DNA of 64,000 nt from Mycolicibacillus parakoreensis (GTDB lineage: Bacteria; Actinomycetota; Actinomycetes; Mycobacteriales; Mycobacteriaceae). The translations under genes and the position numbers were made by a program. A model generated the notes under the pieces. The model made no database searches and was not told the DNA's origin. It saw only the letters and a program-made list of their open reading frames with translations. Location of the stretch: contig NZ_CP092365.1 of the NCBI RefSeq assembly GCF_022370835.2, positions 3,224,001 through 3,288,000 on the forward strand. The letters run 5' to 3'. Below are positions 29,399 through 56,992 of this stretch, one piece after another (within the stretch, counting starts at the first letter, position 1; the number at the start of each line of letters is the position of its first letter).

Positions 29399-29520
29399 GG
29401 AGGCGCTCTTGCCAAGCGCCGGTTGACGTTCGGCCGCTTCGTCATCCGAGCCACCCACGAGCGAAGGGTTGGCGCACCGTCCAGTCGGAGCTTGTCGACG
29501 GCGTCTCGTGAAGCTTTCTC
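29399..29520 (-). ncRNA. SAM-IV-like riboswitch candidate, copy 1
   Basis: A -10 box TACACT (plus 29522-29527) precedes the element. P1 is GCTTC/GAAGC (29510-29514 with 29436-29440); P2 is CCGTC/GACGG (29497-29501 with 29477-29481). The P2 loop TCCGA (29485-29489) can pair with TCGGA (29445-29449) downstream of P3; the P3 loop CGCTC (29459-29463) can pair with GAGCG in the 3' tail (29404-29408). This order of helices and both pseudoknots is that of the SAM-IV riboswitch, and the tail GGCAAGAGCG resembles it too. The following CCTCC could pair with the ribosome binding site. Ligand specificity is inferred, not seen. Confidence 0.7.
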
Positions 29521-29552
29521 CAGTGTAGTGCGCGCGGGCGACACCGCTGCTT

Positions 29553-32324
29553 CTAGTCGACGGCGACCGGGGTGAGTTCGCGAATGGCGTGGCGTGGCCC
29601 GGCGAGGTTGGCGCGCGCCCACGCGGCGACCTGATCCTCCTGGGTGAAGATCACCACCTGCCGGTCGGCGGCGATCTGCAGGAGCAGATCCAGGATGGCG
29701 TCGGTGCGTACCGCGTCGGCGTGCACGGTGACATCGTCGAGCAGCAGGGGGCAAACGTCGTGGTCTCTGGTCAGATGATCGGCCAGCGCCACCCGCAACA
29801 GCAGATACACCTGCTCGGCGGTGCCGTGGGAGAGCAGATCGGCTTTACGCCACCGTCGCGACGCGCCGCACACCTGCACCTCAAGGGATTCCGGGTCGAC
29901 CAGCACGTCGGTGTAGCGCCCACCGGTGACCGTGGGCAGCCAGCCACGCAGCGTTGCCGCCAGCTGCGGGGCGATGTCCCGGTACACGCGGGTCTGCGCC
30001 TGCTCGAGGAACGCCCGCGTCAACTCCAGGGTTTCTTTGAGCTCCTCCACCCGGTGCAGCTCATCGCGGGCCCGGGCGAGGTCTTCCTCGGCTTCGGCGA
30101 CGCTGCCCAGATGCCTCGCCATCTGCCGTAGCTCGCCGTCTTCGGTGTCCGCTCGCGCCGACGCCGTCTCCGCGGCCTGCCGCAGCGCCGGCAGGCTGTC
30201 GGTGTTCGACTCCGCGTGCACCGACTCGAGGAGCGCCGGGTCGACGCCGTCGGCGAGGTGTGCCGCCCGCGCGGCGGCGATCTCGCCGGCCTCGTGCAGC
30301 TCGGCCGGCGTCGAACCGTCCAGCAGAGCCTGCAGCTCGGCCCACTCGTGTTGTGCGGTGCCCAGTTCGGCCAGCCGGGACTGCCGTTGGTCCATCCACT
30401 CCTGCAGCGCCGTAACCGCTTCCGCTGCGGTGTCGGCGACGATTGCGCACCGGCCGGCGACGTCCCGTATCGCCTCGGCGGCCTCGGCGCGCGCCTGCTC
30501 GTCGAAGGCGACGCGGCGTTCGGCGGCCTGGGTGGACGCCAGCTGGTCCAGCAGGTCGGTGCGGCGGGCGGCTTGGGCGCCTTGGGCGGCGCGCTGACGG
30601 CACGCCTGCCGGTAGTGTTCGACTCCCGTGCGCAGCGCCTCCTGGGTCGCCCCGTCCGGGGGGTGGCCGCGCGCGGCCAGGGCGTCGCGCAGGTCGGCCG
30701 CGGCGGCCCGCAGCACATCACGGGTCTTCGCCTCTCGGCGGGCCCGTTCGTCGTGGTCGCGGTGCAAGGCCGCCGCCCGCGCCCGCGCCACCGGGATCGC
30801 GCGCAGCGCCGCGGGTTCGGCGGGCACGCCGAGTTCGACGCAGCGGGCGGCGGCCTGTTCGCGCCGACCGGTCTGTTCTGCGGTGCGCGCCTGCGCGGCC
30901 TGCACCTGCGCTTCGGCGCGGGCGAGATCTTGTGCCACCGCTGCGGTTCCGTGACGGTGGCGGTGCATCGCGCCGGCGAGCATCAGCACCACACCGGCCA
31001 CCAGGGCGGCCACACCAACCGGTCGGCTCGCCGTGGCCACCAGAGCCAACCCGAGGACGGCGACGACGGCACCGGTGGTGATCACCGCCGCCGAGGGATG
31101 CGGGCGTGTCTGCTCGGCGGCGCGGCGGGCTCGCGTCTCGCGGGCGATCACCTCCGGGGGCACGTCGGGGATCGGGACCTCCAGGGTGCGGGCCAGATCG
31201 AGCAGCTCGTCATCGCCCGCATCGACCTGGGGTGCCGCTTCGGTCACCGGGTGTGGCCGCGCGTAGGACTCCAGCTGGGTGGTGGCCCGCATCCACCGCT
31301 CGGCTGCCTGGCGCACACTCGGATGCTCCTCGGTGTCGCCGTGCGGGGCGGCGGGAAGGGCGGCGATCTCCTGGTGGATGTCGGCGCTGGAGCGCTGCGG
31401 GGGACTCGGTGCCGGCGGGCGTGAGCGCCACCGCGTCAACGTCGCAGCCACCTGCTGGGCCAGCGCATCACCGTCGGCCTCGGAGGGCGGCGGTGAATCG
31501 CCGTGGCGGGCGTGCAATTCGTGGGCGCGGCGGGCCCGGTTTTGCAGCTGCTCCGCCGCCGCGGCCGCCTCGGCGGCCTCGTGGGCCCGCACCAGCGCTG
31601 CGGCGGCGTCAGCCTCGCCGCGGACGCGCTCGACCTCCTCGACCCGCGACAGGTATTCGTCGTGGGCCCGGGTTCGGTGCTCGTATTCGTGTTGGCTCGC
31701 CGCCAGCGCGTCTTTGGCGACGCGCAGCGGTTTGGTCGAGTTGGCGCGGTCCACCCCCACGTGCTCGCGGGCGTAGTCGGCGATGCGGTCCAGGGCCGTT
31801 CCCGCCGTCGACGCGGCCCCGGCGGTCGCGGCGGCACGCTGCAGGTGGTCCTGCAGCCCGTCGGCATGGTCGCGGACCCGATGCATCTGGCCCTGTTCGA
31901 CGCAGGCGGTCGCGACGAACGTGGTGCGGTCCAGCCCCAGCCAGGTGGCGGCGTCGGGGGCGCCGTCGTTCATGATCTCTGCGGAGACGTCGCGGCCCAG
32001 CACCAGATCCTTGGCGTGGCAGTCGATCTTGCCGGCGAGGTCTTGACGCAGCTCGATGTCGCGGCCGTCGTCGAGCATGATCCGCGCGGTCACCAGCCAG
32101 TCCCCCTGCCCCCACGGCTTGTGCAGGTCGATGAAGCGCTGCTCGTCGGCGCGGGGTTTGCCCCGCCCGCGGCGCCGTCCGCACAGCGCGGCGAAGATCG
32201 CGGCGTGCCAGGACGATTTCGCTGACTCGTTGTCGCCGATGACGACGGTCATCCCCTCGGCCAGCGCCAGGTTCTGTTCGTGCAGCGGGCCGAACGCGTG
32301 CGCGCTCACCGAACGGATCCGCAT
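29553..32324 (-). CDS. SbcC/YhaN-like SMC-type ATPase
   Basis: The 923-residue protein has an N-terminal ATPase half (Walker A region GDNESAKSSW at 30-39, with IELRQDLAGK strands), long coiled-coil arms from about 190 to 780, two hydrophobic helices in the middle (about 400-445) as in YhaN proteins, and the C-terminal half with signature LLSHGTAEQVYLLLRVAL and Walker B CPLLLDDVTVH. Its start overlaps the stop of the phosphoesterase gene by one base (TGATG), giving the classic SbcD-SbcC pair that processes DNA ends. Oddly, the Walker A glycine before the lysine is alanine (A35). Confidence 0.85.
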   Translation of the reverse strand: MRIRSVSAHAFGPLHEQNLALAEGMTVVIGDNESAKSSWHAAIFAALCGRRRGRGKPRADEQRFIDLHKPWGQGDWLVTARIMLDDGRDIELRQDLAGKIDCHAKDLVLGRDVSAEIMNDGAPDAATWLGLDRTTFVATACVEQGQMHRVRDHADGLQDHLQRAAATAGAASTAGTALDRIADYAREHVGVDRANSTKPLRVAKDALAASQHEYEHRTRAHDEYLSRVEEVERVRGEADAAAALVRAHEAAEAAAAAEQLQNRARRAHELHARHGDSPPPSEADGDALAQQVAATLTRWRSRPPAPSPPQRSSADIHQEIAALPAAPHGDTEEHPSVRQAAERWMRATTQLESYARPHPVTEAAPQVDAGDDELLDLARTLEVPIPDVPPEVIARETRARRAAEQTRPHPSAAVITTGAVVAVLGLALVATASRPVGVAALVAGVVLMLAGAMHRHRHGTAAVAQDLARAEAQVQAAQARTAEQTGRREQAAARCVELGVPAEPAALRAIPVARARAAALHRDHDERARREAKTRDVLRAAAADLRDALAARGHPPDGATQEALRTGVEHYRQACRQRAAQGAQAARRTDLLDQLASTQAAERRVAFDEQARAEAAEAIRDVAGRCAIVADTAAEAVTALQEWMDQRQSRLAELGTAQHEWAELQALLDGSTPAELHEAGEIAAARAAHLADGVDPALLESVHAESNTDSLPALRQAAETASARADTEDGELRQMARHLGSVAEAEEDLARARDELHRVEELKETLELTRAFLEQAQTRVYRDIAPQLAATLRGWLPTVTGGRYTDVLVDPESLEVQVCGASRRWRKADLLSHGTAEQVYLLLRVALADHLTRDHDVCPLLLDDVTVHADAVRTDAILDLLLQIAADRQVVIFTQEDQVAAWARANLAGPRHAIRELTPVAVD

Positions 32325-33436
32325 CAGTGCACCTCCAGGTCGCCGGCGCGCTCATCGAGGGCGCGCAGCCCGGTGAGCAGGACGCGGTGGCGCTGGTCGT
32401 CGCTGAGGGTGTCGGCGGCCAGCACGTCGCGGACGAACTGCCCGCGCACGGTCTGCTCGGTGGCCAGCTGCTCGTAGTCGTCGGTCAGCGCCACGGTGAG
32501 GGAGCCGAACCGGGTGACCAGTGCCTCCAGGTTCGCCGGGCAGGCCGCGTCGATGTCGGCTGCGCGCAGGTCGACGTCCGGTCCGAGCGCGCCGTGCAGG
32601 GTGACCCGAACGTGACCGGAGAGGTCGGCGAGGGCGTCGAGGACCTTCTGGCGTGCCTGCCCGGCATGGGTCACGCCGGTGATGTCCACGTCGATGTCGC
32701 CGACGGTGGAGGTCGCGGTCGGCAATCGCTGCCGGGTGATAGCGCCGTCGTCGGCGATCGTGACCAGCACCGCCTCGCCGGGCCAGCTCTCCCCGAAGGT
32801 CAGCGGGTCCGGGTTGCCCGGGTAGGTGTGATCGGGGGCGTCGACGGGGTGGTGGAAGTGACCCAGCAGCGCGTGGTGCAGCCCGGATTGGCGGATCTGG
32901 GCGGCCCGAAACGGTGCGTGCGGGACCTTCTCGGTCGGCTGGATCGCCAGATCGCCCTGGGCGGAGCCGTGGAAAAGACCCAGGTGCACACCGCCGCGGT
33001 CGGCACGGAAGTCGTCGAGGAAGCCGCGGGTGTTCGCCGGTGCGCGGTGGGCGGCACCCCACAGTGTGAGACCGTCGGCCAGGGTGATCGGCTGCAGCTC
33101 GTCGGTGTCGAAGATGTGCACGTTCGGTGACCAGTCGACTTGGCGGTAGAGGCTTTTCGGACCGAACCAGTCGTGGTTGCCCGGGGCGAGATACACTCGC
33201 AGCGGGGCGATCTCGGCGAAGGTGGTGCGCAGGAACTCCGCGGTGTCGGGGGTGAACCGGTCCTGCTCGTACAGGTCCCCGCCGCAGGTGAGGGCGTCGA
33301 CCTGCTGGTCGGCGGCCAGCTGGCAGATGCGCTGCAGTGTCTGGCGCAGGGCGTGGCGGCGGCCGCGTGCCTGCGGGCGGGTCGCCCAGCCGAACAGCGT
33401 GTCGAGGTGCAGATCCGCGAAGTGCAGCAGCTTCAT
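32324..33436 (-). CDS. SbcD/YhaO-like DNA repair metallophosphoesterase
   Basis: This 370-residue calcineurin-like phosphoesterase has the full metal-ligand series: FADLHLDTLF (D8, H10), LTCGGDLYEQD, LAPGNHDW, GLFHGS and LLGHFHHP. It would be the Mre11-type nuclease partner of the ATPase encoded directly downstream. C-terminal residues 230-370 form the capping and partner-binding part. A start further upstream would run through the neighbouring gene in another frame, so ATG 33436 is chosen. Confidence 0.87.
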   Translation of the reverse strand: MKLLHFADLHLDTLFGWATRPQARGRRHALRQTLQRICQLAADQQVDALTCGGDLYEQDRFTPDTAEFLRTTFAEIAPLRVYLAPGNHDWFGPKSLYRQVDWSPNVHIFDTDELQPITLADGLTLWGAAHRAPANTRGFLDDFRADRGGVHLGLFHGSAQGDLAIQPTEKVPHAPFRAAQIRQSGLHHALLGHFHHPVDAPDHTYPGNPDPLTFGESWPGEAVLVTIADDGAITRQRLPTATSTVGDIDVDITGVTHAGQARQKVLDALADLSGHVRVTLHGALGPDVDLRAADIDAACPANLEALVTRFGSLTVALTDDYEQLATEQTVRGQFVRDVLAADTLSDDQRHRVLLTGLRALDERAGDLEVH

Positions 33437-33489
33437 CGTCTCGCCTTCCTGCTTGCTCGTCGGTGTCAGTGCGTGCGGTCGATGCGGTG

Positions 33490-34503
33490 TCAGGCCCAGC
33501 GTTCGGCGATCGCCCGCGAGGCCGGGTTGACCTGGTCGTGGCCGACCAGCCGGATGTCCAACCCGGCATACTCCACGATCGGCAGGGCCCGCTCGATCGC
33601 GGCGTCGATCCAGCCCGGGGCGTTGCCGAACGCGCCACCGCCGACGCGGGTCAACAGCACGATGTTCGATCCGCCGGCACGCGCCTGCCCGGCGGCGGCC
33701 AGCAGCGTCGCCTCGTAGGTGGCCTCCAACACCAGCCGCGCGAACGGCTCCCACGCGGCTCCGGGCAGATGCGAGTACGCCACCGGCAGCGCCGAACAGA
33801 ACGCCTGCGACACATGCCGTCGCGGTTCGTCTGTGACGTCGGTGACCTGGACGTTGCGATGCAGGCCTATCGCCAGGTGTCCGCGTAGCCGGTCGCGGAG
33901 CTGCTCGTCGGCGCCGCTCAGCACGTCGGTGATCGCCGCCAGTCCGTGCTCGGTGGCCAGGGCGTAGCCGTTGCGCATATCCCACAGCTCATGCATCGGC
34001 CGGTTCACCTCCGCCGAGAGCGCCGCACCCAGCGGGGCCAGCGCGTCGAGTTGACGGTCGTGGGTCTGGCCGAACTGGTCGCTTATCGGTACCAGGTAGT
34101 TGCGGTAGATGGTGGCCGCCCCGGCCGCCATGGCACACGCCGGGCCCTGGGTGGGATCGTGGGCGTAGCCGGTGACACCGTGCTCAGGGGTGACGTGCGG
34201 TGACACCATCTCCAAGACGTTGAACTGCGAGGCGACCTGAAACAGCGCATCCGCCAGCTCGGCCTCGGAGTGCATCGCACGGGCATCGCCGGCCACAGCG
34301 CTGACCGTGCTGCGCGACCGACCGGCCGGATTCACCCGTGCACGCAGCTCGGACAGCGTCGGCAAGGTCAGCTCACCGATGCCGTAGCGGGCGCCGGTGA
34401 CCGTGGAGATCAGCTCATCGCCGTCGACGGCCAGGCGACGACGGGTGCTCTCGTAACCGTCCTCGCGGAAACCCATCAGGTCGGAAAACCAGCGGGCGCT
34501 CAT
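33490..34503 (-). CDS. Unknown protein with a macrodomain-like C-terminal motif
   Basis: The 337-residue protein begins MSARWFSDLMGFREDGYEST and is not clearly assignable. Its C-terminal segment NIVLLTRVGGGAFGNAPGWI, followed by DAAIERALPIVEYAGLDIRLV, resembles the phosphate-binding loop and final helix of macrodomains, which bind ADP-ribose. Another conserved-looking segment is YRNYLVPISDQFGQTHDRQ. The ATG overlaps the stop of the phosphatase gene by one base (TGATG), so the two are coupled. A role in ADP-ribose or nucleotide chemistry is only a suggestion. Confidence 0.55.
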   Translation of the reverse strand: MSARWFSDLMGFREDGYESTRRRLAVDGDELISTVTGARYGIGELTLPTLSELRARVNPAGRSRSTVSAVAGDARAMHSEAELADALFQVASQFNVLEMVSPHVTPEHGVTGYAHDPTQGPACAMAAGAATIYRNYLVPISDQFGQTHDRQLDALAPLGAALSAEVNRPMHELWDMRNGYALATEHGLAAITDVLSGADEQLRDRLRGHLAIGLHRNVQVTDVTDEPRRHVSQAFCSALPVAYSHLPGAAWEPFARLVLEATYEATLLAAAGQARAGGSNIVLLTRVGGGAFGNAPGWIDAAIERALPIVEYAGLDIRLVGHDQVNPASRAIAERWA

Positions 34504-35555: not shown

Positions 35556-36984
35556 TGTGTCCAGAGATGTGGTGTACAGACGTTTGGCCTGGTAGGCGTG
35601 TCGTAGCCGGGTAGAGGGCGGTCATCGCGTGATTCTTCGAATTGACCAGCAAAGTCACTCGAAGGGGAACAACGCGATGACCACCTCACCTCACCCTATC
35701 GACGCCGAGCAGCTGTTGGCCGATCAACTCGCGGAGGCCAGCCCGGATCTGCTGCGCGGTCTGTTGTCGACGTTCCTTGCCGCGTTGATGAGCGCGGAAG
35801 CCGACGCCATCTGCGGGGCGGGCTACCGGCAGCGCAGCGACGAGCGGATCAACAGCTGCAACGGCTACCGGCCACGCGATTTCGACACCCGTGCCGGCAC
35901 CATCGACGTGGGCATCCCCAAACTGCGCCAGGGCAGCTACTTCCCGGACTGGCTGCTGGAGCGGCGCAAGCGCGCCGAGCGGGCACTGACCAGCGTGGTG
36001 GCGACCTGCTACCTGTTAGGGGTGTCGACTCGGCGCATGGAGCGGCTCGTCGAATCGCTGGGCGTGACAGGACTGTCGAAGTCGCAGGTGTCGGTGATGG
36101 CCAAAGAGCTCGATGAACAGGTGGAGGCGTTTCGCACCCGCCCCCTCGACGCGGGCCCGTACACGTTCGTGGCCGCCGATGCGGCTGGTGCTCAAGGTCC
36201 GCGAGGCCGGCCGCGTCATCGGCGTACACACGCTGATCGCCACCGGCGTCAACGCCGAGGGCTACCGGGAGATCCTCGGCCTGCAGGTCAGCTCTGCCGA
36301 GGACGGGGCGGGTTGGCTGGCGTTCTTCCGCGACCTGGTCGCCCGCGGCCTCTTAGGGGTCGCACTGGTCACCAGCGACGCGCACCCGGGCCTGGTGGCC
36401 GCGATCGGCGCGACGATACCCGGGGCGGCGTGGCAGCGGTGTCGTACCCATTACGCAGTCAACCTGATGTCGGTCACCCCGAAATCATCGTGGCCGTGGG
36501 TGCGTACCTTGCTGCACTCGATCTATGACCAGCCCGACGCTGACTCCGTTGTTGCCCAATATGATCGGGTGCTCGACGCGCTATCGGACAAGCTGCCGAA
36601 CGTCGCCGAGCATCTGGACGCCGCCCGCGCTGATCTATTGGCGTTCACCGCGTTCCCCAAACAGATTTGGCGACAGATCTGGTCGAATAATCCCCAGGAG
36701 CGCCTCAATAGAGAGGTTCGGCGCAGAACCGACGTGGTGGGCATCTCCCGGTCCGGGCCTCCATCATTCGGCTCGTCGGCGCAGTCCTGGCCGAACAACA
36801 CGACGAATGGATCGAAGGCCGCCGCTACCTCGGCCTCGAAGCCCTCACCCGCGTCCGAGCAGCGCTGGCCAACACCGATGAGCCCAACAGCCAGCAAACC
36901 GACACCACACCGGCCCTGACCGCCTAAACTGCCACGCGAAGGGTCACGCAATCGAGCGACCTCTTACACCACGCCACTGGGCTT
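35556..36984 (+). mobile_element. IS256-family insertion sequence, inactive
   Basis: The element is about 1.43 kb, normal for IS256. The left end (from about 35557, GTGTCCAGAGATGTGGTGTA) and the inverse of the right end (about 36984-36961, CCCAGTGGCGTGGTGTA) match over the core GTGGTGTA and flanking CCAG, giving imperfect terminal inverted repeats. Exact ends are uncertain by some bases. No clear target duplication is visible. The transposase inside is frameshifted. Confidence 0.65.
35677..36927 (+). pseudogene. IS256 transposase with two frameshifts
   Basis: Starting at ATG 35677 (AAGGGG upstream), the frame gives a good Mutator-type transposase (CNGYRPRDFDTRAGTIDVGIP, WLLERRKRAERAL, ATCYLLGVSTRRME). 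An extra base at 36183/36184, just after the first catalytic Asp (FVAADA), shifts it to the next frame, which carries VTSDAHPGLV (second Asp) and NNPQERLNRE (Glu). A base is lost near 36745, after RTDVVGI; the original frame then resumes as IRLVGAVLAEQHDEWIEGRR and ends at TAA 36925. The net shift is zero, but three pieces cannot make one protein. Confidence 0.85.
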
Positions 36985-37654: not shown

Positions 37655-39604
37655 ATGCACGCGCATCCGAAGCCCCCTCCGAAGTCGCAGTATGCAGTCA
37701 AACATGTCCGCGGCCCGTTTGTCGAGTTACCTGTTCATTCGGGCCACACGGCTAGCGAGAAGGAGTTCGCCACCTTTTGCACCGAGCTGCGTCACCGCGG
37801 TGTTCCGTTAGCCGCCGATTTGTTCAGCGGAGCCGGCGGCATGAGTCTGGGGCTGCAGGACGCTGGTTTCCAGGTGGTGCTGGGGGTCGACCACTACGGT
37901 TTCGCGGCCGAGACCCATGGACACCATTTTGGAGGTATGTCGTTGGAAGAAGACCTAGCCGATCCGGCGGCAATCAAGCGGGTCGCAAGACTGATGAAGC
38001 GTAACAAGATCGAGTTGCTCGCCGGTGGCCCGCCCTGCCAACCGTTCTCGCGGGCCGGACGGTCAATGATTCGGCACCGCGTTCTGACTGGGGCGGCCGA
38101 CCCTCATGACGAGCGCCGAGATTTGTGGCGGTCGTTTTTGGAAGTGGTCCAGCTCGCGCGCCCAGCTGCGGTCATTATGGAGAACGTCCCAGACATGGCG
38201 TTGGATCGCGAGATGTTCATCCTTCGGAGCATGACCGAAGAACTCGAACAAATCGGCTACTCGGTCTCAGCTCGGGTGATCGACACTTGGCGCTACGGAG
38301 TCCCTCAGATGCGGCAGCGGCTGCTTCTGGTCGCCTTGAGGGGGGGCGTCGAGTTTAGCTGGCCGGATGAGTCGGAAAGACGAGTGACGTTATGGAACGC
38401 GATCGGGGACATGCCTGACGTCGAGGGCGGCTGGCGCCCAGAGGGGGGAGCACTCGGATGGGCTGACTACGCTGGGCCTAGAACGCAATACCAAAGATGG
38501 ATACGCCGACGTGTCCGAGTGAGTGACCGATACAAGCTGTTCGACCACATCACGCGCCCAGTGCGTGAAGACGACCGCGCTGCTTTCGAGTCGATGACTC
38601 ACATGACAAAATACACAGATTTGGCGCCAGAGTATCAGCGCTACCGCAAAGATATTTTCGACGATAAATATAAAAGATTAGACGAAAACGATCTTTCCCG
38701 AACGATCACCGCGCATATCGCTAAAGACGGTTACTGGTATATCCATCCCCGCCAGCCTCGGACCCTCACAGTCCGAGAGGCGGCGCGAATTCAGACCTTC
38801 CCCGACGATTTTCGTTTTGCTGGCCCGCCGTCGGCGGCATTCAAGCAGATAGGTAACGCTGTCCCACCTTTGATCGCGGAAGTGATCGGCAGCGCCGTTC
38901 GTGCCTCATTGACCGCTCGTAGGAGAGCTGCATTGTCGACCAGACAAACAGCGGCGACGCTGGCGCAATGGTTTCACGAACAACCCACTGTTAAGTCAAT
39001 GCCATGGCTGAAGACCACGAACCGCTGGAAATTTGTCTTAGGCGAGATGTTGCTCGATCGCGCTACGCACACTGTTGCCAGTGCGGTATGGAACGTAATC
39101 GATACCGACACACATGACGTACCTCCAGGCCGGCTACCTGACCGGCAAGCCGTGGCGCTTCTCGAGGAACTTATGTCGGGCGTTGGTCGGGCTCAGCGGA
39201 TCTCAGCAGTCAACGCCCTGATCGATCAGATGGGTGCCGATCCGACGGCATTATGGCAACCGTCTATCGAGCGATCCTCCCTACCGGTGATACCGGCGGC
39301 ACTTTGCGACTTGGTGGAGTTGGCTCTGCCCATAACGACGCCTGAAGGTACCGAGAGTGATGAACCCGTTCTTGTCACCAAGGGAGTCCTACGTGTGGCA
39401 AGCCGGTTTCATGGTAACGACGCAGATAAACGAAACGTACAGACAGACGGCCGGATCGCGGTCGCAAGGATGATCGGGTTCGGCGATCAGTCCCGATCCG
39501 CACATCTGGCCCTCATCGCTCTGGCAGCCGAGATCTGTCTAGTGGACAAGCCGCGATGCGCGGAGTGCCCGTTAAATCAATGGTGCGCTACTGCACAAAC
39601 CTAA
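37655..39604 (+). CDS. C5-cytosine methyltransferase fused to EndoIII-like glycosylase
   Basis: The 649-residue protein has two enzymes. Residues 50-430 form a C5-methyltransferase: motif I ADLFSGAGGMSLGL (54-67), catalytic Cys128 in GGPPCQPFS, ENVPDM, QMRQRL and QIGNAVPP. Residues 430-649 resemble the endonuclease III/MutY fold: WKFVLGEMLLDRATHTVASA, then VLRVASRF, and a C-terminal C-x6-C-x2-C-x5-C (628, 635, 638, 644), the [4Fe-4S] pattern of this family. A single chain could therefore both methylate and excise bases. TAATCT lies 6 nt before the ATG. The last codon overlaps the stop of the convergent MORC-like gene. Confidence 0.88.
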   Translation: MHAHPKPPPKSQYAVKHVRGPFVELPVHSGHTASEKEFATFCTELRHRGVPLAADLFSGAGGMSLGLQDAGFQVVLGVDHYGFAAETHGHHFGGMSLEEDLADPAAIKRVARLMKRNKIELLAGGPPCQPFSRAGRSMIRHRVLTGAADPHDERRDLWRSFLEVVQLARPAAVIMENVPDMALDREMFILRSMTEELEQIGYSVSARVIDTWRYGVPQMRQRLLLVALRGGVEFSWPDESERRVTLWNAIGDMPDVEGGWRPEGGALGWADYAGPRTQYQRWIRRRVRVSDRYKLFDHITRPVREDDRAAFESMTHMTKYTDLAPEYQRYRKDIFDDKYKRLDENDLSRTITAHIAKDGYWYIHPRQPRTLTVREAARIQTFPDDFRFAGPPSAAFKQIGNAVPPLIAEVIGSAVRASLTARRRAALSTRQTAATLAQWFHEQPTVKSMPWLKTTNRWKFVLGEMLLDRATHTVASAVWNVIDTDTHDVPPGRLPDRQAVALLEELMSGVGRAQRISAVNALIDQMGADPTALWQPSIERSSLPVIPAALCDLVELALPITTPEGTESDEPVLVTKGVLRVASRFHGNDADKRNVQTDGRIAVARMIGFGDQSRSAHLALIALAAEICLVDKPRCAECPLNQWCATAQT

Positions 39605-40887
39605 AATCCGAGACCTCGCCCCAAGTCAGGATGCTGCTGGCAAACAATCCTCATGACCTTCTTGAAGCCGTCGTATTCACCTGATTGGATAGCGGCTGAC
39701 TTTAAGGCGAGACCGACCTCGGACAAAGCGCCGTTGGTTGGCGCTTTATCGTCATTCTCGATGATTTCGTCTTCGCCGCGCTCCTCAGTAATAGCACCAT
39801 GACGACGATAGACTCGGTCTGCAAGAATACAAAGCTCGCTCACTGGACGGTCCAACATCTGCTTCAGCTGGGCCGGCACCGCAACGCGCATCTTCGCCAC
39901 GTTGATGTTGAAAACCTCATCGAGCGTACTGGTGAAGTCCAAGCTAGCCCGAGCCAACTTCGTATGCTCATCAATACCGCGTGTTCCCGCCCAACTCCCC
40001 CACTGCACTAACCGGTTCTCTCGGTAAACGTAAAGACCCTGTTGGCGGTTCCACTTGAGAGGCCCAGCGGCGTCCTCGAAAGCGTCCACCGAACTAAACG
40101 TTGCTTTGCCGGGCAAGATATAACGTCGCAGCCCAACTGTTCCGACTCCAGCCGCACTCTCCAGTTCGAACTGTTGGGGCGGCAACTCCTGGGTCCCCGG
40201 CTCATGCCGAACGAACGGATCCCACGCAAGTAACTTGTCGCCATTAACTCGGATCGAGATTCGCGCGGCATTTTTCTCGCCGGTCAGGAACCGATGGAAC
40301 ACCATGGCTAGGTGGCGCTTTGTCTTAACGACCAAGTTTTCGAATCGGCGTTTGGCCCAACCGCCCTCTGAGCCGGACGCCGGCAACACACGATCTAGAT
40401 TCTGCCACACCACGACGGTTCCAGTACCCGTGCCGAGCATCTCCTCACTGCGTGCCACGGCGTGATCACGGGGATTCTCAGCCAGTACCCAGTCGTCGAA
40501 CTCGGCGATCAGGTCCAAGTCCAACGATCGTCGCAGCGGCCGTTTACGCTCGGCCGGCCTGGTGACGATCGTGAGACAACGCCCTTGAGACAAGGATGCA
40601 GTCTTCAACCCCAGACCGTACCGACCTAAGTCACCAGACCCGTAGGTACGCCGACTACCGAAGCGCAACGCCTCAGTCATACCGCGGGCAGTTAGACCAC
40701 AACCGTTGTCGGCAATGAAGACTGCCGAGTCACGGCCGGCAAACTCGATCTCCACCGCAATGTCGGTAGCCCCAGCAGAGATGCTGTTATCAATGAGGTC
40801 GGCAATCGCACTGACGAAGTCGTAGCCGATATCCCTGAGCGACGACGTGAGCCGAGCTGCCGACGGTGCCGCACTGGAAAGCTTCAT
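39601..40887 (-). CDS. MORC-like GHKL ATPase
   Basis: The 428-residue protein has the GHKL ATP-binding motifs: N-box IADLIDNSISAGA, G1 IADNGCGL, and G2 LGRYGLGLKTASLSQG, all in the first 115 residues, followed by a transducer-like domain. This matches bacterial MORC/MutL-type ATPases described in restriction-modification islands with Z1 helicases. ATP-driven dimer closing around DNA is the known behaviour of the fold. The ATG at 40887 has GAGG upstream; a TTG three codons earlier is possible. It is convergent with the methyltransferase and divergent from the Z1 operon. Confidence 0.87.
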   Translation of the reverse strand: MKLSSAAPSAARLTSSLRDIGYDFVSAIADLIDNSISAGATDIAVEIEFAGRDSAVFIADNGCGLTARGMTEALRFGSRRTYGSGDLGRYGLGLKTASLSQGRCLTIVTRPAERKRPLRRSLDLDLIAEFDDWVLAENPRDHAVARSEEMLGTGTGTVVVWQNLDRVLPASGSEGGWAKRRFENLVVKTKRHLAMVFHRFLTGEKNAARISIRVNGDKLLAWDPFVRHEPGTQELPPQQFELESAAGVGTVGLRRYILPGKATFSSVDAFEDAAGPLKWNRQQGLYVYRENRLVQWGSWAGTRGIDEHTKLARASLDFTSTLDEVFNINVAKMRVAVPAQLKQMLDRPVSELCILADRVYRRHGAITEERGEDEIIENDDKAPTNGALSEVGLALKSAAIQSGEYDGFKKVMRIVCQQHPDLGRGLGF

Positions 40888-41326
40888 AACACACAAACCT
40901 CGGGATCAGTCCTGCTGTCTTCGTCAAGTTAAGCACTAGGGACAGACAACGTCGGACCGACGCGCGGCGCGGAACCTGCCTCTTCGGGTAAGCTACCGCT
41001 GCCGTCGCGAACAGCATCTCCCTAGACACTCGCGAACCTACCGTTTGTAACCGTGTCCGTGCGCGTCGGCCGCGACACAGTCCATTTCGCGGCGGAAGTG
41101 GTGGAAATCACGTCAGCCATGGTTGCCGCAATCACCTCCCACGGTCCGGTGACGCTCATCCCCGCCTCAGCGCGGGGACTCGGTGCATCGCGGATCGTGG
41201 CATCCATGGCATCCACTACCCACCATGACGCGCCAAGGCTCAGCAAGACCACAGGTTCGCCTGTAAAACACTGGGCTAAACGGTATGTTCCAAGCGATCG
41301 GCATCCGATTAAGAGGGAGCGCGCAG
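40888..41326. other. Divergent control region between MORC-like gene and Z1 operon
   Basis: About 440 bases separate the two divergent starts. A frame of 102 codons on the plus strand (41053-41361) spans part of it but runs into the Z1 gene in another frame and has no recognisable content, so I do not call it a gene. The region must carry the promoters of both units; I see no strong palindrome or convincing -35/-10 pair. Confidence 0.4.
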
Positions 41327-51126: not shown

Positions 51127-51137
51127 CGATCCCTCCA

Positions 51138-54100
51138 CTACGCCACAATCTCGATCACACATGCCGCGAGGGGTTCCAAACGAATCTCGGGCTGAACTTC
51201 ACTTCGTAGATCCGCGCACAGCGAGCTGTAGCGCTCCTGCGCCCGTCGACGCTGACTTTCGAACAGCGCTATTACTCGATCACCGCGCTTTCGGTGCCGC
51301 GCGGTCGCGAGGCGGTTTTCGATCGCCGCCATTTTGCGACTGTGCTGCTGCTCCAGGGAGATCGCCCGGGATTCCCGGAGCCCTTCGAATTCGTGACGTC
51401 GCCGTTCCTGTTCCTCCAGATGCCGACGATGTAGTTGGTTGTGGGCCCGCTCTGCGAGCCTCTCCAGCCGGTCAATGTTCGGAAGTGGAGCATCGGCGAG
51501 CCTTCCTTCGGCGAGGGCCGCCAGTAGCGCATTGCCCGGCCCTTCCCCCGCGTCCCGGCCGGACTCGGTGACCGCAGCACCCCAAATTTCATCTCCGCCA
51601 GGCGATGCCGAAACCGCTTTAGCCATGACCACAACGTAGATACCGGGACTGACATTCTCGGTTGCGGTCGACAGCCTCAGCGACGCGAACCGGGCCTGCC
51701 GATGCCCGGGAACCGCTGCCGCCGCCATCGCCAGTGGGCTCGTGGCAGTGAGGAGTTTTCCGCCACCGGTGCGGGCCAGCTCCTGGTCGAGGACCAGCGA
51801 TATCGGGATCTCGCTGCGAAGCTGCGTGGACAGGTCACTGGTCTCGGCGCGGGTGCGTTGCGCAGTTTTGGCCAGTTCGTCGACGCGGCCGGCCATGACC
51901 GGGTTGCCGTACAGTTCGGCCGTCCGGTTGTCGTCCGCGAGCCGGATGCCCGACGCACCGTCCACGCGTGCCCAGTCATCGAGCAGCTGTGCAAGCTCGT
52001 GCTGTCCGATGTAGCGACCGGTGCGAATAAGCTCGTCTTCCAGGCCGGCGACATCGACGTCGTTGCTGACCAGCAGGGCACTGGAGGCGTCGGAGACGTC
52101 CTGCAGACCGGCACGCTGCTCCTCGATGGCGGTCTCGACTTCGTGAATCTTTTGCGCACGCTGCTCCGGCGTCAGAGTGAAATCGAATCCCGCCTCCAAC
52201 ACTTTGGGGGCGTTGGCGGCGATGATCGGCTCAAGGGCCCCGATGGAGGATTCGAAGATCCCGATCCGCTCCAGGAGCCGAGACAAGATGCGTTCGTCGA
52301 TGGTGGCGTCGTTGACGAAGTTCACCACCAGCATGGTTTCTTCGAGCTGACCGATTCGGTCGATGCGACCGATCCGCTGTTCAATTTCCATCGGGTTCCA
52401 CGGCAGGTCGTAGTTGACGACCGCCGAGCAGAATTCGAAGTCGAGCCCCTCGCTGGCAACCCGGTTGGCTAGGACGAAATCGTAGCTTCCGTCCCGGAAG
52501 TCGGCCATGATGCGGCGACGTTTCTCCCGGTTGACACCACCGTGCATGACGGCTATCCGGAATTCGGCTTGGAGCCGACCGATCAGGTAGGCCAGCGTCG
52601 GCCGCGAGTGGGTGAATACCAATGCGCGGCGGCCCTGCTGCTGCAACGTGCGCAGCACTTGGCGGAGGTGATCGAACTTGGTGTCGACGTCCTCAGGGAG
52701 GCGGCGCGCCGCGGCGACCAACCCGGCATGAGGTTCCACGCGGACGGCCGGGGCATCGGAGTCGGCATCGGTAATGGCTCCGAAGGACTGCGGGTCGAGT
52801 ACAGCGCGTCGCGCCATCGGTAGGCAGGCGCTGGCAAGGCGCAGCGGCATCTGCATCGCGAAATGCAGCGGCCTTCCCATCGCGGCTGCACGGTCCTTGC
52901 ACCACTCCAGATACTCGGTGTAGAACTCGGTTTCGGCCGGAGTCCACGTGACCTCGTAACGGTGCAGCGTCCGCTTGGATTTGCGATCGTCGACGTCGAT
53001 TTTCTTGGTTCGGGTTATCACCGTGGACAACGTGTTGAGGTCGGCAAGATAGCGTTTGGCGTCGACGACATCGCGCGGAGTCAAACGTTCTTTGTCCAGG
53101 ATCTCTGCCAGGAAGCCGAAATCGGGTCGCTGCATCAACGGCGCGCCGAGTGCCGTCGTTCGGAGTTCTTCGAGCTTGCTACACAGCTCGCGGCCGTCGA
53201 CGCCCTTCTCGACCAGGCGCGCCGCGACCGCATTGGTGATGCGGTTGGGCTCCAACCGCATTTCGAGATCACGGATATCGCCGTAGTCGCCGGGGGCCAG
53301 CAGTTCCAGGAGGTTGAGCAGGTCTTCTTGGCGCAGGTTGATCGGAGTCGCGGTGAGGAAAACCAGGTTGTCGGCCCAGTCGGTGAGTCGTGTGCCCAGC
53401 GCGTAGCTCTTGGTGTCCTGGTTACGCATGGAGTGTGCTTCATCGACGATGACCAGATCGAACTCCGGGGGCAGCTCGTCCAACTCCTCCATGCCGGCCC
53501 ACGTGCGCAGCCGCTCGATGCTGCCGATGTAAGCCTGTCGGCGCGGAAGACGGTTCTGGCGGTGCTTTTCCAAAAAGGTGCGCAGCGTACTGCTGTCGAG
53601 TTCGGTCAGGTCGAACTCGAAGCGGTCGTCCATCTCCTCCTTCCACTTGCCGACCAGGCCTGCCGGACAGACGATCAATACCTTGTCGGCTTCCCTTCGT
53701 GCCTCCAGTTCGGTCCAGATCAGGCCGGCTTCGATAGTCTTACCGAGACCGACCTCGTCGGCGATCAGGATCCGGGCTTTGCCGGTTTGCAGCAGCTTGA
53801 GCACCGGCTTGAACTGATAGGGCCGGAATGTGGTGCGGGTGGCGCGGAACGAAAACAGGGTGTTGGCGAATTTGCTCTGCAACTTCGCCCGCGTCAATGT
53901 GGCGCCGAAGCGGCGCGCCGGCGTCGGCTCCCGGGTGACCCACGCCCGCGGGTCGTCGAGCTCGGGGCGGGCCTTCAGCGATGATTCGATCACGCTCTGC
54001 TGGTGGCCCTCGACGATCACCGTGTAGGACCACTGCCCCGATCGACCGCCGAGAAACACCCGATCGCGGATCACGATATCGGCATCACCCGGGTGGGTCA

Positions 54101-54500
54101 CCGCCGCCTCGTTGATCGCGAATCGAGGTGGCGGGACCACATGGGCGTCGAGCCAAAGCTTCTCGGCCCACCCGTACGCTGCCATCAGCGGGTGGTGCTC
54201 GGTGAGCTGGTCGACCGCAGTGACCGTCGCGTCCCCCGGCAGTGCGCCGTGAGCGACCTGCATCACCAACGCGCCGCCGTCGATGCTCTGAAACCAATAG
54301 ATCCCCTCGGGCAGCTCGATCTCGGGCTGGCCCAGAACCCGGCACTCGCCGGCGAAGGAGGCGAGCTCGCGGACCGGACCGTCGAGAACGAGCGCCCGCG
54401 GGAATTCACCGCGGTCAAATGCGACGTTGGGCTGCTCCGGGTCCGGGTGATAGCCGAACGAAGGCGAAACTTCCGGCACCGATGAAGCCTGGGATGTCAC
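51138..54500 (-). CDS. SNF2/RapA-like DEAD/DEAH helicase
   Basis: The 1120-residue protein has an N-terminal beta-rich domain (to about 210), an SF2 core with RPYQFKPVLKLL, Walker A ILIADEVGLGKTIEAGLIW, DEAH box LVIVDEAHSMRN, motif III FLTATPINLR, then the second RecA domain ALVFTHSRPTLAYL, NRVASEGLDFEFCSAVVNYD and motif VI QRIGRIDRIGQ. A C-terminal coiled coil follows (HRRHLEEQERRRHEFEGLRE). This is the RapA/HepA type that moves on duplex DNA or acts on stalled polymerase. The GTG at 54500 has AGGAGGAGG upstream; a GTG at 54530 would add 10 residues. Confidence 0.87.
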   Translation of the reverse strand: MTSQASSVPEVSPSFGYHPDPEQPNVAFDRGEFPRALVLDGPVRELASFAGECRVLGQPEIELPEGIYWFQSIDGGALVMQVAHGALPGDATVTAVDQLTEHHPLMAAYGWAEKLWLDAHVVPPPRFAINEAAVTHPGDADIVIRDRVFLGGRSGQWSYTVIVEGHQQSVIESSLKARPELDDPRAWVTREPTPARRFGATLTRAKLQSKFANTLFSFRATRTTFRPYQFKPVLKLLQTGKARILIADEVGLGKTIEAGLIWTELEARREADKVLIVCPAGLVGKWKEEMDDRFEFDLTELDSSTLRTFLEKHRQNRLPRRQAYIGSIERLRTWAGMEELDELPPEFDLVIVDEAHSMRNQDTKSYALGTRLTDWADNLVFLTATPINLRQEDLLNLLELLAPGDYGDIRDLEMRLEPNRITNAVAARLVEKGVDGRELCSKLEELRTTALGAPLMQRPDFGFLAEILDKERLTPRDVVDAKRYLADLNTLSTVITRTKKIDVDDRKSKRTLHRYEVTWTPAETEFYTEYLEWCKDRAAAMGRPLHFAMQMPLRLASACLPMARRAVLDPQSFGAITDADSDAPAVRVEPHAGLVAAARRLPEDVDTKFDHLRQVLRTLQQQGRRALVFTHSRPTLAYLIGRLQAEFRIAVMHGGVNREKRRRIMADFRDGSYDFVLANRVASEGLDFEFCSAVVNYDLPWNPMEIEQRIGRIDRIGQLEETMLVVNFVNDATIDERILSRLLERIGIFESSIGALEPIIAANAPKVLEAGFDFTLTPEQRAQKIHEVETAIEEQRAGLQDVSDASSALLVSNDVDVAGLEDELIRTGRYIGQHELAQLLDDWARVDGASGIRLADDNRTAELYGNPVMAGRVDELAKTAQRTRAETSDLSTQLRSEIPISLVLDQELARTGGGKLLTATSPLAMAAAAVPGHRQARFASLRLSTATENVSPGIYVVVMAKAVSASPGGDEIWGAAVTESGRDAGEGPGNALLAALAEGRLADAPLPNIDRLERLAERAHNQLHRRHLEEQERRRHEFEGLRESRAISLEQQHSRKMAAIENRLATARHRKRGDRVIALFESQRRRAQERYSSLCADLRSEVQPEIRLEPLAACVIEIVA

Positions 54501-54539
54501 CGACGCCTCCTCCTGCCTGTGCGCAAACACCGCGAGCGA

Positions 54540-54665: not shown

Positions 54666-54837
54666 CGCACTCCTACGAACTGAGCATTTCCTGTGCGGTT
54701 AGAAAGCAGTGTAAATGTACGCACCGACAATTTTCCTCGGGGTGTGAAATATCGGTGACTCCGATTCACCCGGCGAATGGCCGAGCCGGCTCGCCGGGTC
54801 GATGTCGGCGACCCTCGACACCCACCGCTGAAACCCC

Positions 54838-55587
54838 TCACCCCCGCAGCAACGCCCCCACACTGCCCGACCGCCACACCCTGCCGCTCGCGGTGCGCTG
54901 CCCGGAGGAGTTCAGCACCCGGGCGGTGGCCGCCTGCGAGACCCCGCAGCCGTCCACCAGCCACCGCACATAGCCGATCACCAGGGGTTTGCGGTAGCGC
55001 CACGGCACGTGGGCCGGCGGCAACACCGGCGGTCCCGCGCTCTCCTGCCTGCGGTGATCACCGCCGGCGACCGACGTGCGCTTCGGCCCGACCGTGCGCG
55101 CCGCGGCCACCAGCGTCCGTTCGATCTCCGCACTCAGCTTCTTCACCCCGGCGGCCGCCAGGGCGGCGTTGTCCAACGCGTCGACGGCGCGCACCTCGGA
55201 GCGCAGCGCCCAGTCGATCTCGTTGACCCCGCTCTCGGCGGGAAGCGCCCACAGCTTGCGCCCCGTGCGCAGGTTGAGCCCATGACGCTGCAGCACCAGG
55301 CTGATCCGCCGTGAGTGCTGCTCGCGACCCAAATCCGGGCTCAGAAACGGCACCCAGATGTCCAGGTGATCGGCGATGGCCCTCGCCAGCGCGGCCACCA
55401 CCGCGGCGATCTCGGTCAGATCGGCGGTGCGGCCGGGTTCCCAAAGGTCAAACGCGTAGATGTCGGCGACCACGAAGCCACGCCGCTGGGCAGTCGCGGT
55501 CAGATCCTCGCGGTGTGCGGTGGTGTCGGTGTCCCCGAGCAGCAGCACCGCGGTGTTCGTCGCCGACGGCCCCACCAGTGATGTCAT
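54838..55587 (-). CDS. Unknown protein downstream of SAM-IV-like RNA copy 2
   Basis: The 249-residue protein has a Rossmann-like start (TAVLLLGDTDTTAHREDLTA, then RRGFVVADIYAFDLWEP), a helical middle with LDIWVPFLSPDLG and SRRISLVLQRHGLNL, and a C-terminal basic domain WRYRKPLVIGYVRWLVDGCG, ending ARVLNSSGQRTASGRVWRSG, which resembles the C-terminal helix-turn-helix of serine recombinases. The N-terminal segment could be a nucleotide- or DNA-processing fold, but no catalytic motif is clear. GGGAGG lies 7 bases before the ATG, and the conserved end of the RNA element is 34 nt before it. Confidence 0.6.
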   Translation of the reverse strand: MTSLVGPSATNTAVLLLGDTDTTAHREDLTATAQRRGFVVADIYAFDLWEPGRTADLTEIAAVVAALARAIADHLDIWVPFLSPDLGREQHSRRISLVLQRHGLNLRTGRKLWALPAESGVNEIDWALRSEVRAVDALDNAALAAAGVKKLSAEIERTLVAAARTVGPKRTSVAGGDHRRQESAGPPVLPPAHVPWRYRKPLVIGYVRWLVDGCGVSQAATARVLNSSGQRTASGRVWRSGSVGALLRG

Positions 55588-55619
55588 CGCTAGCCTCCCG
55601 ATGTCGTCAGGCCCCCACC

Positions 55620-55740
55620 CGGAGGCGCTCTTACCGGTGCCGGTCGGCACCGGTCGCTTCGTCATCCGAGCCACCCACGAGCGTGGGGTTGGCGCGCCGC
55701 CCAGTCGGAGCTTGTCGACGGCGACTCATGAAGCTGCCCC
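55620..55740 (-). ncRNA. SAM-IV-like riboswitch candidate, copy 2
   Basis: A -10 box TACCGT (plus 55742-55747) precedes P1 GCTTC/GAAGC (55730-55734 with 55656-55660). The J1/2 segment ATGAGT matches the SAM-IV form better than the other copies. P2 CCGTC/GGCGG keeps pairing through a U-G pair where copy 1 has U-A. The loop/P3-distal pseudoknot TCCGA/TCGGA and the P3-loop/tail pseudoknot CGCTC/GAGCG are both present, and a long hairpin (ACCGGTGCCG with CGGCACCGGT) stands where SAM-IV has its extra helix. GCCTCC of the tail is complementary to GGAGGC at the ribosome binding site of the gene at 55587. Confidence 0.7.
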
Positions 55741-55789
55741 TACGGTATCGACGGCCTCTGACATTTCTGCGCCACCGAATCCATCGTTC

Positions 55790-56383
55790 TCAGCGCCCTT
55801 CCCGCAGCGCCGCGTTGATCTCCGCTACCTGCTCATCGACCCGGTATTTGTCACCGCGCAGATAGGCCCAACTCGCCGCGGTCGGCCGCAGTTCAACCAG
55901 CCGTCTGCCGTAGCGGGCCCGAAGGATCGCCGCCACCTCCTTGAACCGGCCGATGCCCTCCCAGAATGTCCGCTCGCGGAAGAGCTCGCGATCGCCGTGG
56001 CGCACCACCGTCCAGCGCTCACCGTCGACGCTCACCTCATCCCAGTCCAGAGCCAGCTGCTCCCCGTCGAGGTCGGGCAGTTGCTCCCCGTCCCGAAGCA
56101 GCGATTCGTACATCTGCCGCCGGTGAGTCATCTGTTCCTCGGCTCGGGGCAGCTCCTTGATGGCCCGCGGGTTGCCCGCCGCCGCAGCCTCGCGGGTCTC
56201 GGCGATCGTCGGGAACAAGACGATCAGGATCATGCAGCAACATTTCGGGCAGCACAGATCGAACAGGTCGGCGTGCATGTCCAGATAGGGCATCTGCGGC
56301 CCGGTCCAGCCGCAGCGCGGGCAGGTGATCTCGGTGTCGCGTTGGTCGTCGAACTCCCAGTACCTCATGAATTTAGCGCTCAC
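55790..56383 (-). CDS. Zinc-ribbon protein of unknown function
   Basis: The 197-residue protein has an N-terminal cysteine set CPRCGWTG...DLCCPKCCCMI (about 21-52), a probable zinc ribbon, followed by a helical region and a conserved-looking middle RHGDRELFRERTFWEGIG...RFKEVAAILRARYG. It ends in KYRVDEQVAEINAALREGR. No function is known. GTG 56383 overlaps the previous stop (GTGA); an ATG five codons later is an alternative. It is the third gene of the unit that begins after RNA copy 3. Confidence 0.65.
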   Translation of the reverse strand: MSAKFMRYWEFDDQRDTEITCPRCGWTGPQMPYLDMHADLFDLCCPKCCCMILIVLFPTIAETREAAAAGNPRAIKELPRAEEQMTHRRQMYESLLRDGEQLPDLDGEQLALDWDEVSVDGERWTVVRHGDRELFRERTFWEGIGRFKEVAAILRARYGRRLVELRPTAASWAYLRGDKYRVDEQVAEINAALREGR

Positions 56384-56592
56384 GGTGCCCCCTTTCCTGG
56401 GTGCGGATCGGTGTGCTGAGGTGGCGCGTCCAGCTCGCTCAGCCGGTGGACCGGCATCGTGATGCCGTGATGGTCACGCTTCGCCCGTTCCAGCAGTTGC
56501 CGGGTGGTCTCGCCGGGGCGCCGACGCAGCGGTGGGCGGCACGCCTCGATACGTCCTGACGTGGCCACATTGAACTGGACAATCGAAACCAT
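56380..56592 (-). CDS. Small unknown protein coupled to its neighbours
   Basis: The 70-residue protein MVSIVQFNVATSGRIEACRP... is basic and contains GETTRQLLERAKRDHHGITM, a short amphipathic helix. No family is recognised. It starts 12 bases after the stop of the preceding 77-residue protein and overlaps the next gene by 4 bases, so it is probably real and part of one operon. Confidence 0.45.
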   Translation of the reverse strand: MVSIVQFNVATSGRIEACRPPLRRRPGETTRQLLERAKRDHHGITMPVHRLSELDAPPQHTDPHPGKGAP

Positions 56593-56604
56593 TTAGAGCA
56601 CATG

Positions 56605-56838
56605 TCATTTCGGCAACCACTCCGCGTACCCGCCGAAACGTTGCGCCGCGGCCATCACCTGCGCGTCGTGATGCCACACCGTGAGGGTCAGATCCTGTCC
56701 GGCGATGTCGATCCTGCCGTCGTCGTGGACGGCGGTCACCTTGACCTTGATGACCGGCTGGTCGGGTTCAACGGGGTTGTAGCCGTGAATCCAGTGCATG
56801 TGATGGCCGGGTGCATAGGACCCGCGGGGAGACGACAT
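56605..56838 (-). CDS. Small unknown protein downstream of SAM-IV-like RNA copy 3
   Basis: The 77-residue protein begins MSSPRGSYAPGHHMHWIHGY and continues as beta-strands (VIKVKVTAVHDDGRIDIAGQ, LTLTVWHHDAQVMAAAQ), ending in GGYAEWLPK. It may be a small beta-barrel; no family is recognised. The ATG has GGAG 6 bases before it, within GGAGTGCTCC, which can fold on itself. The conserved end of the RNA element lies 34 nt before the ATG. It is first in a three-gene unit. Confidence 0.55.
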   Translation of the reverse strand: MSSPRGSYAPGHHMHWIHGYNPVEPDQPVIKVKVTAVHDDGRIDIAGQDLTLTVWHHDAQVMAAAQRFGGYAEWLPK

Positions 56839-56871
56839 AGGAGCACTCCAGAATGTCCGGGCCTCCGGTGA

Positions 56872-56992
56872 AGAGGCGCTCTTGTCGCACACCGGTCGGC
56901 GGCGACCGCTTCGTCATCCGAGCCACCCACGAGCGTGGGGTTGGCGTGTCGTCCAGTCGGAGCTTGGCGACGACATCTCGTGAAGCACCTCT
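56872..56992 (-). ncRNA. SAM-IV-like riboswitch candidate, copy 3
   Basis: A -10 box TATCAT (plus 56994-56999) precedes P1 GCTTC/GAAGC (56982-56986 with 56908-56912). P2 is GTCGTC/GACGAC, different in sequence from copies 1 and 2 but still fully paired, which is compensatory change. Loop TCCGA/TCGGA and P3-loop CGCTC/tail GAGCG pseudoknots are both kept, as is the tail AAGAGCGCCTC. The hairpin after P1 is GGTCG-CCG-CCGACC. The similarity to SAM-IV is by topology and conserved junctions; ligand binding is not shown. Confidence 0.7.

Follow-up and report, generated by a model that had tools for sequence, protein, structure and literature searches.

The window analysed here is a stretch of 64,000 nucleotides (nt) from Mycolicibacillus parakoreensis (NZ_CP092365.1, positions 3,224,001 to 3,288,000), which carries three copies of a structured RNA on its minus strand. 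An earlier reading of the sequence (hereafter the original prediction) had taken them for elements resembling the SAM-IV class of S-adenosylmethionine (SAM) riboswitches, and had proposed an Rfam search. Our scan with all Rfam families matched each of the three segments full length to SAM-IV (RF00634), the sole family to reach gathering level in the window: copy 1 (29400..29513, minus strand) with 76.7 bits, copy 2 (55622..55733, minus strand) with 82.9 bits and copy 3 (56873..56985, minus strand) with 74.1 bits, against a gathering score of 38 and with E-values from 2.8e-13 to 2.7e-11. A permissive scan (E<=1) of positions 28000-58000 gave no further RNA family. The -10 boxes TACACT, TACCGT and TATCAT, which had been assigned to copies 1, 2 and 3, are present, and a start codon does follow closely, 32, 34 and 34 nt behind the respective aptamer. 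The genome (3.94 Mb, two contigs) contains a fourth, canonical SAM-IV copy (105.8 bits) before an open reading frame (ORF) that looks by eye like an O-acetylhomoserine sulfhydrylase; the same placement is reported for M. avium in a passage of PMC3774663.

Copy 1 precedes a gene of the WGPY family (28883..29329, minus strand; 148 amino acids (aa)) without any family match. Behind copy 2 lies a resolvase-like gene (54838..55587, minus strand; 249 aa) that has no Pfam match at E<=0.01; some database names read "Recombinase family protein", and a model of the protein gave weak fold matches only, the best being to a recombinase (E 0.03). The gene behind copy 3, a member of the GHxxHWI family (56380..56838, minus strand), contains two in-frame stops, and its first part spans 77 aa. 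The copy 3 cassette also includes an uncharacterised ORF of 197 aa (55790..56383, minus strand), to which no family could be assigned.

The three window copies belong to a group that we term variant A. We aligned 81 variant A copies (79 distinct), fitting them to the helices and leaving the pseudoknots out of the fitting. The alignment recovered the SAM-IV topology proposed for the window, namely P1, P2, P3, the 3' hairpin and both pseudoknots (PK1 and PK2), across which 97.1% of the pair cells pair. As many as 18 of the 39 pairs are changed on both sides, and double-changed cells number 126, versus 34.2 +/- 4.6 in shuffles; none of 500 shuffles equalled any of the alignment measures, and in slid controls pairing drops to 35-41%. 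The covariation of P2 seen between the window copies is upheld. The pseudoknots, originally described as constant, are so within the window, but among the homologues PK1 shows two double-changed pairs and PK2 one-sided changes only (99.0% and 97.5% of cells paired, respectively, in the 79 distinct rows). Covariance-model matches and covariation in 81 homologues were both found, with no sign of the coding or transposon-end origin that the original prediction had held up as the alternative; such an origin was rejected in view of the fold and the covariation, although terminal repeats were not searched for.

The altered core that had caught attention in the window, GCCAACC for GGCAACC, is real, and is explained by compensation within P3a, whose middle pair, beside the ligand pocket, is inverted: C-G replaces G-C in 80 of the 81 copies. 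Residues within 5 Å of SAM in the SAM-I core, among them SAM-I residue 59, are given in a section of PMC6890682, and the columns corresponding to the pocket are kept in nearly all of the 81 copies (U3 81, C4 80, G7 81, A8 81, C57 81, A58 79, A59 81, C60 81, U76 80, G77 81, A90 81). The second P1 pair varies: among 79 rows, 71 have U-A and 7 have G-C. Variant A lacks the P3a consensus GGC, which is typical of SAM-IV, though not demanded by the Rfam model, and its copies still score above gathering; we therefore class it as a variant subclass. Judged by sequence and conserved pairing, the three elements are SAM-IV riboswitches forming a distinct mycobacterial subclass, and variant A quite probably binds SAM. 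With canonical SAM-IV, as found in mycobacteria before O-acetylhomoserine sulfhydrylase, it has in common P1, P2, P3, the 3' hairpin, the pseudoknots and most pocket residues. It differs in the inverted P3 pair, a shorter P3 loop, non-sulfur target genes, multiple copies per genome and, in most copies, a promoter of the type described below; against RF00634 the variant copies reach 50-83 bits and the canonical ones 96-118 bits. The ligand core is also common to SAM-I and SAM-I/IV, but SAM-I/IV carries P4 in the absence of PK-1, and PK-2 sets SAM-IV apart from SAM-I as a new feature (PMC6890682, in the part on class comparison); variant A has both pseudoknots and is scored by Rfam as SAM-IV.

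RF00634 matches 59 of 60 sampled genomes of the genus, with a top copy of 99.7-118 bits per genome, and 15 of the 60 additionally contain weaker copies (50-83 bits), which on reading sort mainly into variants A and B. A covariance model built from 11 variant A copies matched at E<=1e-9 in 57 of 297 genus genomes, with 75 matches in total. Of these, 72 (among them the 11 used for building) are variant A, scoring 84.9-137 bits in 54 genomes. The other three (66-69 bits) comprise one truncated copy (G070), left out of the fetched loci, and two SAM-IV copies (L161 and L162) before cysteine-desulfurase-like ORFs. The paralogous copies before non-methionine genes, regarded as unusual when seen in the window, recur in the genus, and those downstream genes that were seen are not sulfur genes. 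A single genome may hold up to five variant copies, and in four other genomes two copies again lie about 1 kb from each other. The variant B model, run on 294 genus genomes, detected 33 copies, spread over 32 of them; their core is GGCAACC, i.e. the canonical P3 pair is kept. Among 397 genomes of the order, variant A-model matches of at least 93 bits are confined to this genus, four genomes from two more genera of its family, and one 5,223-base contig of another family, while 394 genomes of the class added two inverted-core matches (98.6 and 86 bits) in another family. In the plasmids collection only an Arthrobacter megaplasmid gave a match (85.2 bits). Of 60 stretches returned when named genomes were scanned with a pattern, 59 came from Mycobacterium, Mycolicibacter, Mycolicibacillus or Mycolicibacterium, the remaining one from a Pseudonocardiales metagenome-assembled genome. 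When copies from other genera were inspected (12 read of 21 looked at), GGCAACC was found in 10 and the variant core in 2.

Several individual copies stand apart. The inverted-core aptamer of the Arthrobacter megaplasmid (L259, 3004-3123) has no TGTC promoter and precedes a small uncharacterised ORF starting with TTG. An odd SAM-IV copy of 58 bits (L046, 5961-6079, minus strand), neither A nor B, likewise lacks the promoter motif and stands before a small uncharacterised ORF. SAM-IV ahead of cysteine-desulfurase-like ORFs, recognised by eye at L049 (3980-4124), L161 (7974, minus strand) and L162 (7965, plus strand), indicates a second sulfur-type target in some mycobacteria.

The original prediction, while correct about the -10 boxes, overlooked that they belong to a larger promoter of fixed layout, TGTCRg-N10-TAnnnT. 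The RecA-independent DNA-damage promoter (RecA-NDp) has the consensus tTGTCRgtg-8nt-TannnT (PMC5656591, in its promoter analysis); PafBC works through it according to in vivo cross-linking described in a portion of PMC6789036, and single-stranded DNA (ssDNA) is named as the activator of PafBC in an excerpt of PMC11804915. Agreement with 12 positions of this consensus was scored at a set distance of 5-10 nt ahead of the aptamer (4-10 nt for variant B), leaving out L161 and L162, which are not variant A. In the window, copy 2 agrees at 10 of 12 positions (ATGTCAGAG-N8-TACCGT, 55742..55764, minus strand, ending 8 nt before the aptamer), copy 3 at 9 (CTGTCCGTC-N8-TATCAT, 56994..57016, minus strand) and copy 1 at only 8 (GTGTCGCCC-N8-TACACT, 29522..29544, minus strand). 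Over all variant A copies the score is at least 9 in 55 of 82 and at least 8 in 63 of 82, and in these 63 the letters of TGTC are present in 61, 63, 63 and 62 copies, respectively. Variant B reaches at least 9 in 26 and at least 8 in all of 30 copies (30 read of 33). None of the 31 canonical SAM-IV copies read, out of about 60, reaches 9 (Fisher test against canonical: 5e-12 for variant A, 2e-13 for variant B). Removal of similar upstream regions leaves 47 of 71 variant A copies at 9 or above (the near-duplicate L043 was excluded here, as were L161 and L162, and the same holds for the hairpin counts and gene clustering below), and composition-shuffled upstream regions reach 9 in 1.7% of cases, all places taken together. 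The pattern and spacing are those of the RecA-NDp/PafBC promoters of the mycobacterial DNA-damage response, but here the promoter is coupled to a riboswitch; in the open-access literature on SAM-IV, RF00634, PafBC, DNA damage and defence we found no description of a riboswitch joined to a PafBC or DNA-damage promoter. Two WYL proteins of this genome, encoded about 1 kb apart (C1:1609769 and C1:1610761), form an adjacent pair that would fit pafBC. PafBC is very probably the activator of these promoters.

One further promoter of this type, without a riboswitch, is located at 54708..54730 (minus strand), 177 nt before the GTG start codon of a DrmD-like helicase gene. It is the sole exact match to the RecA-NDp consensus in the 3.94-Mb genome; 15 more sites match with one mismatch, and a reversed control gave 6 matches in all. 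As the genome's only exact match precedes the genes of DrmD-like and UvrD-like helicases, this suggests that defence helicases may themselves be inducible by DNA damage without a riboswitch.

Downstream of the aptamer the leaders are built to a common plan, with the start codon 29-35 nt behind it in 57 of 76 cases. A first hairpin, commonly GCCUCC/GGAGGC but also GCCCCG/CGGGGC or GUCUCCG/UGGAGAC, adjoins the 3' side of the PK2 strand and has at least 5 base pairs in 64 of 69 platforms, versus 32% of shuffles. The second one overlaps the Shine-Dalgarno sequence and reaches at least 4 base pairs in 35 of 61 leaders, versus about 26% of shuffles. In the expression platform of copy 2 (55594..55626, minus strand) the first is GCCUCC/GGGGGC, and a possible second, CCUGA/UCGGG, lies over the Shine-Dalgarno sequence GGGAGG. 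With these hairpins, one of which overlaps the Shine-Dalgarno sequence, control is likely to be exerted at translation. Canonical SAM-IV is an OFF switch, and by analogy a translational OFF logic is slightly favoured for variant A. The start codon that follows the copy 1 aptamer is that of a 13-codon leader ORF (29326..29367, minus strand; identified by eye) whose stop overlaps the start of the 148-aa gene (29329) as ATGA, and a 12-codon ORF is likewise placed in Mycolicibacillus koreensis (L106); such leader ORFs could allow translational coupling.

Among the first ORFs behind 81 copies the largest cluster is GHxxHWI, with 24 sequences (about 21 true members by eye), followed by ADP-ribosylglycohydrolase (11), resolvase-like (7), TY-chaperone-like (6), WGPY (5), ankyrin (5) and IPCGGLRGPV (4); three smaller clusters (7) and 12 singles, some of them probably misread frames, make up the rest. 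The IPCGGLRGPV family is found, by eye, behind 20 or more of the 30 variant B copies, so that this gene family is shared by the two variants. Searches with one representative per family identified the Pfam domains ADP_ribosyl_GH (with DSPc just below the cut-off), Metallophos, TY-Chap3 and ankyrin; the remaining families have no confident family in Pfam, and NCBIfam, PHROGs and sequence searches of the PDB gave little. GHxxHWI has 255 homologues, without a Pfam domain among the matches listed (120), and a predicted structure with a mean predicted local distance difference test (pLDDT) score of 76.3, while the resolvase-like family has 248 homologues among 8000 candidates scored. Several of the downstream families are commonly met as immunity or conflict proteins.

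The closest relative of the window among the fetched loci is that of M. koreensis (L106), in which window positions 57033-55782, comprising copy 3 with its promoter and genes, are missing. In the window, each of the two block ends falls 48-49 nt ahead of an aptamer, that of copy 3 and that of copy 2. A second difference concerns the island itself, whose layout needs correction: the DrmD/Mza block sits between copies 2 and 1 and is missing at the same place in M. koreensis, where 2.4 kb face the 21 kb of window positions 54785-33453 (helicases, Mza genes, a methyltransferase and a split Mutator transposase). The DrmD-like SNF2 helicase gene (51138..54530, minus strand) was recognised by a DrmD-like model; positions 37655-44948 contain Mza-like genes (matches to the MzaB, MzaC and MzaD models) together with a DNA cytosine methyltransferase gene, and the Mutator-type transposase is encoded by two overlapping ORFs (35629-36919, plus strand) that correspond to successive halves of the Pfam profile. 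The label of a defence island fits the window, with its MzaB, MzaC, MzaD and DrmD-like matches, but a general link for the class did not emerge over 14 variant A loci. The neighbour scans covered 93 of 186 ORFs (14 of 25 chosen variant A loci) and, as controls, 98 of 176 ORFs (11 of 20 canonical loci). PADLOC models (E<=1e-15) assigned 41 families to the 93 variant A neighbours, none on more than two proteins among the matches listed (25 of 41), and two families, on 9 and 1 proteins, to the 98 controls; defence enrichment at variant A loci is not clear from this comparison of 14 with 11 loci, and we claim none. A phage origin was considered and rejected: the variant A core, a shorter variant A core and the variant B core were found in no viral contig, the 18 viral contigs retrieved with a loose promoter-plus-aptamer pattern contain no aptamer, and the aptamer searches had no match in the phages collection. 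Accessory SAM-IV copies have been counted previously, since PMC8190616 reports SAM-IV (n=16) among 42 predicted Mycolicibacterium prophages encoding other non-coding RNA; its passage on these copies describes no subclass, promoter or target genes.

The fold, the covariation, the largely kept pocket, the promoter pattern, the near-constant spacing, the recurring gene families and one cassette-sized presence/absence difference are computationally well supported. The explanation that we regard as probable on these grounds is that the three leaders combine a RecA-NDp/PafBC promoter with a variant A SAM-IV aptamer in regulatory heads carried on cassettes, whose translation would be damage-induced and SAM-gated. 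Each head would open with the promoter; the aptamer would begin where transcription is inferred to start, and a short platform of hairpins with the Shine-Dalgarno sequence would lead to the start codon some 29-36 nt on. PafBC would turn on transcription when ssDNA signals DNA damage, and the aptamer would then permit translation only at low SAM. The heads would be gained and lost together with their gene, as mycobacterial cassettes whose mostly unstudied products appear conflict- or repair-like. This arrangement suggests that the downstream genes respond to DNA damage and SAM simultaneously.

A number of observations weigh against this explanation. The second P1 pair and the P3 pair depart from the canonical pocket, and fixing PK2 in folding leaves the accessibility of the Shine-Dalgarno sequence as before (0.364 to 0.354, n=47). 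The departure at P3 (pair 43-59 in SAM-I numbering) leads to the strongest alternative, that the ligand has changed and the inverted pair favours another adenosyl or nucleotide compound, such as S-adenosylhomocysteine, a product of SAM breakdown or a signal resembling ADP-ribose. The inversion is nearly universal in variant A and involves residue 59, which lies within 5 Å of SAM in SAM-I (PMC6890682, same section), and the regulated genes seen are non-sulfur; a new ligand of this kind would match the nearby ADP-ribosylglycohydrolase, phosphatase, NrtR and NUDIX genes (ADP_ribosyl_GH 5, DSPc 6, NrtR_WHD 3 and NUDIX 2 of the 93 neighbours). However, the remaining pocket positions are kept, save for the variable second P1 pair, and variant B has the canonical P3 pair, yet the same promoter type and a gene family in common with A, so we consider a changed ligand rather unlikely.

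Other adverse points concern the promoter. As many as 19 of 82 variant A copies score 5-7; 8 of the 31 canonical copies score 8, and window copy 1, likewise at 8, does no better than the best of them. Similar aptamers outside the order are without the promoter, and when promoter and aptamer were sought as one exact pattern with a rigid 8-nt gap, this genome alone among 61 matched, the gap being 7 nt in many copies. Neither recA nor another repair gene was recognised by eye at any of the 16 genomic consensus matches with at most one mismatch, and the consensus is therefore without a positive control in this genome. The copies share ancestry, so that the counts are not independent events. ClgR is also reported to recognise the same site (PMC5656591, in the part on the motif), and SiwR is another WYL activator, acting at -26 (PMC10693628, in a short section). 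A different factor, ClgR or a further WYL protein, could thus occupy the site, in which case the signal would not be ssDNA via PafBC; the in vivo cross-linking that places PafBC at RecA-NDp (PMC6789036) argues against this, and we consider it quite unlikely.

The remaining adverse points bear on the cassettes. The copy 3 gene is interrupted, and the break points of the missing unit are only approximate, because 127 nt between the aligned blocks in M. koreensis do not align. The interrupted gene and the low-scoring promoters would be expected if these were ordinary SAM-IV paralogues with hitch-hiking genes and lost regulation, the promoter match being a by-product of common mycobacterial promoters. 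Against this speak the covariation and the largely invariant pocket, the failure of any of the 31 canonical copies to reach 9, the near-constant distance to the start codon and the recurrence of gene families, which make lost regulation improbable. Least of all do we favour a transposon or integron-like element with the RNA as its recombination site, since, despite copies about 1 kb apart, a whole unit present or absent between related species and a resolvase-like product, the RNA has the fold, the pocket and the promoter of a leader, the three core patterns gave no viral contig and none of the 18 contigs from the looser one holds an aptamer, although terminal repeats were not searched for.

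A role of the cassettes in genotoxic or phage stress is possible, though somewhat less likely than not. More speculatively still, the cassettes could form a two-key regulon for immune or genotoxic stress, in which two signals, ssDNA perceived through PafBC and SAM depletion perceived by dedicated riboswitches, feed a coincidence detector that releases effector, immunity or repair genes. A hypothetical instance would be a phage attack in which DNA is damaged and SAM is destroyed so as to disarm methylation-based restriction; a phage SAM-degrading enzyme that counters restriction is described in part of PMC7877911. So far SAM riboswitches have been found chiefly with sulfur and methionine genes, and a DNA-damage promoter joined to a SAM subclass would, if confirmed, tie methyl-donor supply to genome damage or phage stress. 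It would also open a way into several protein families that lack a name, and supply a natural leader with two inputs for study.

Two features flank copy 1 in the window. Directly upstream of it, genes for an AAA ATPase and a calcineurin-like phosphoesterase form a pair (29553-33985, minus strand), which we take to be SbcCD-like and which is partly aligned in M. koreensis. On the other side, convergent with the copy 1 gene, lies an ORF for a Fic/Doc-type toxin (28491-28868, plus strand), with a small antitoxin-like ORF (by eye) ahead of it.

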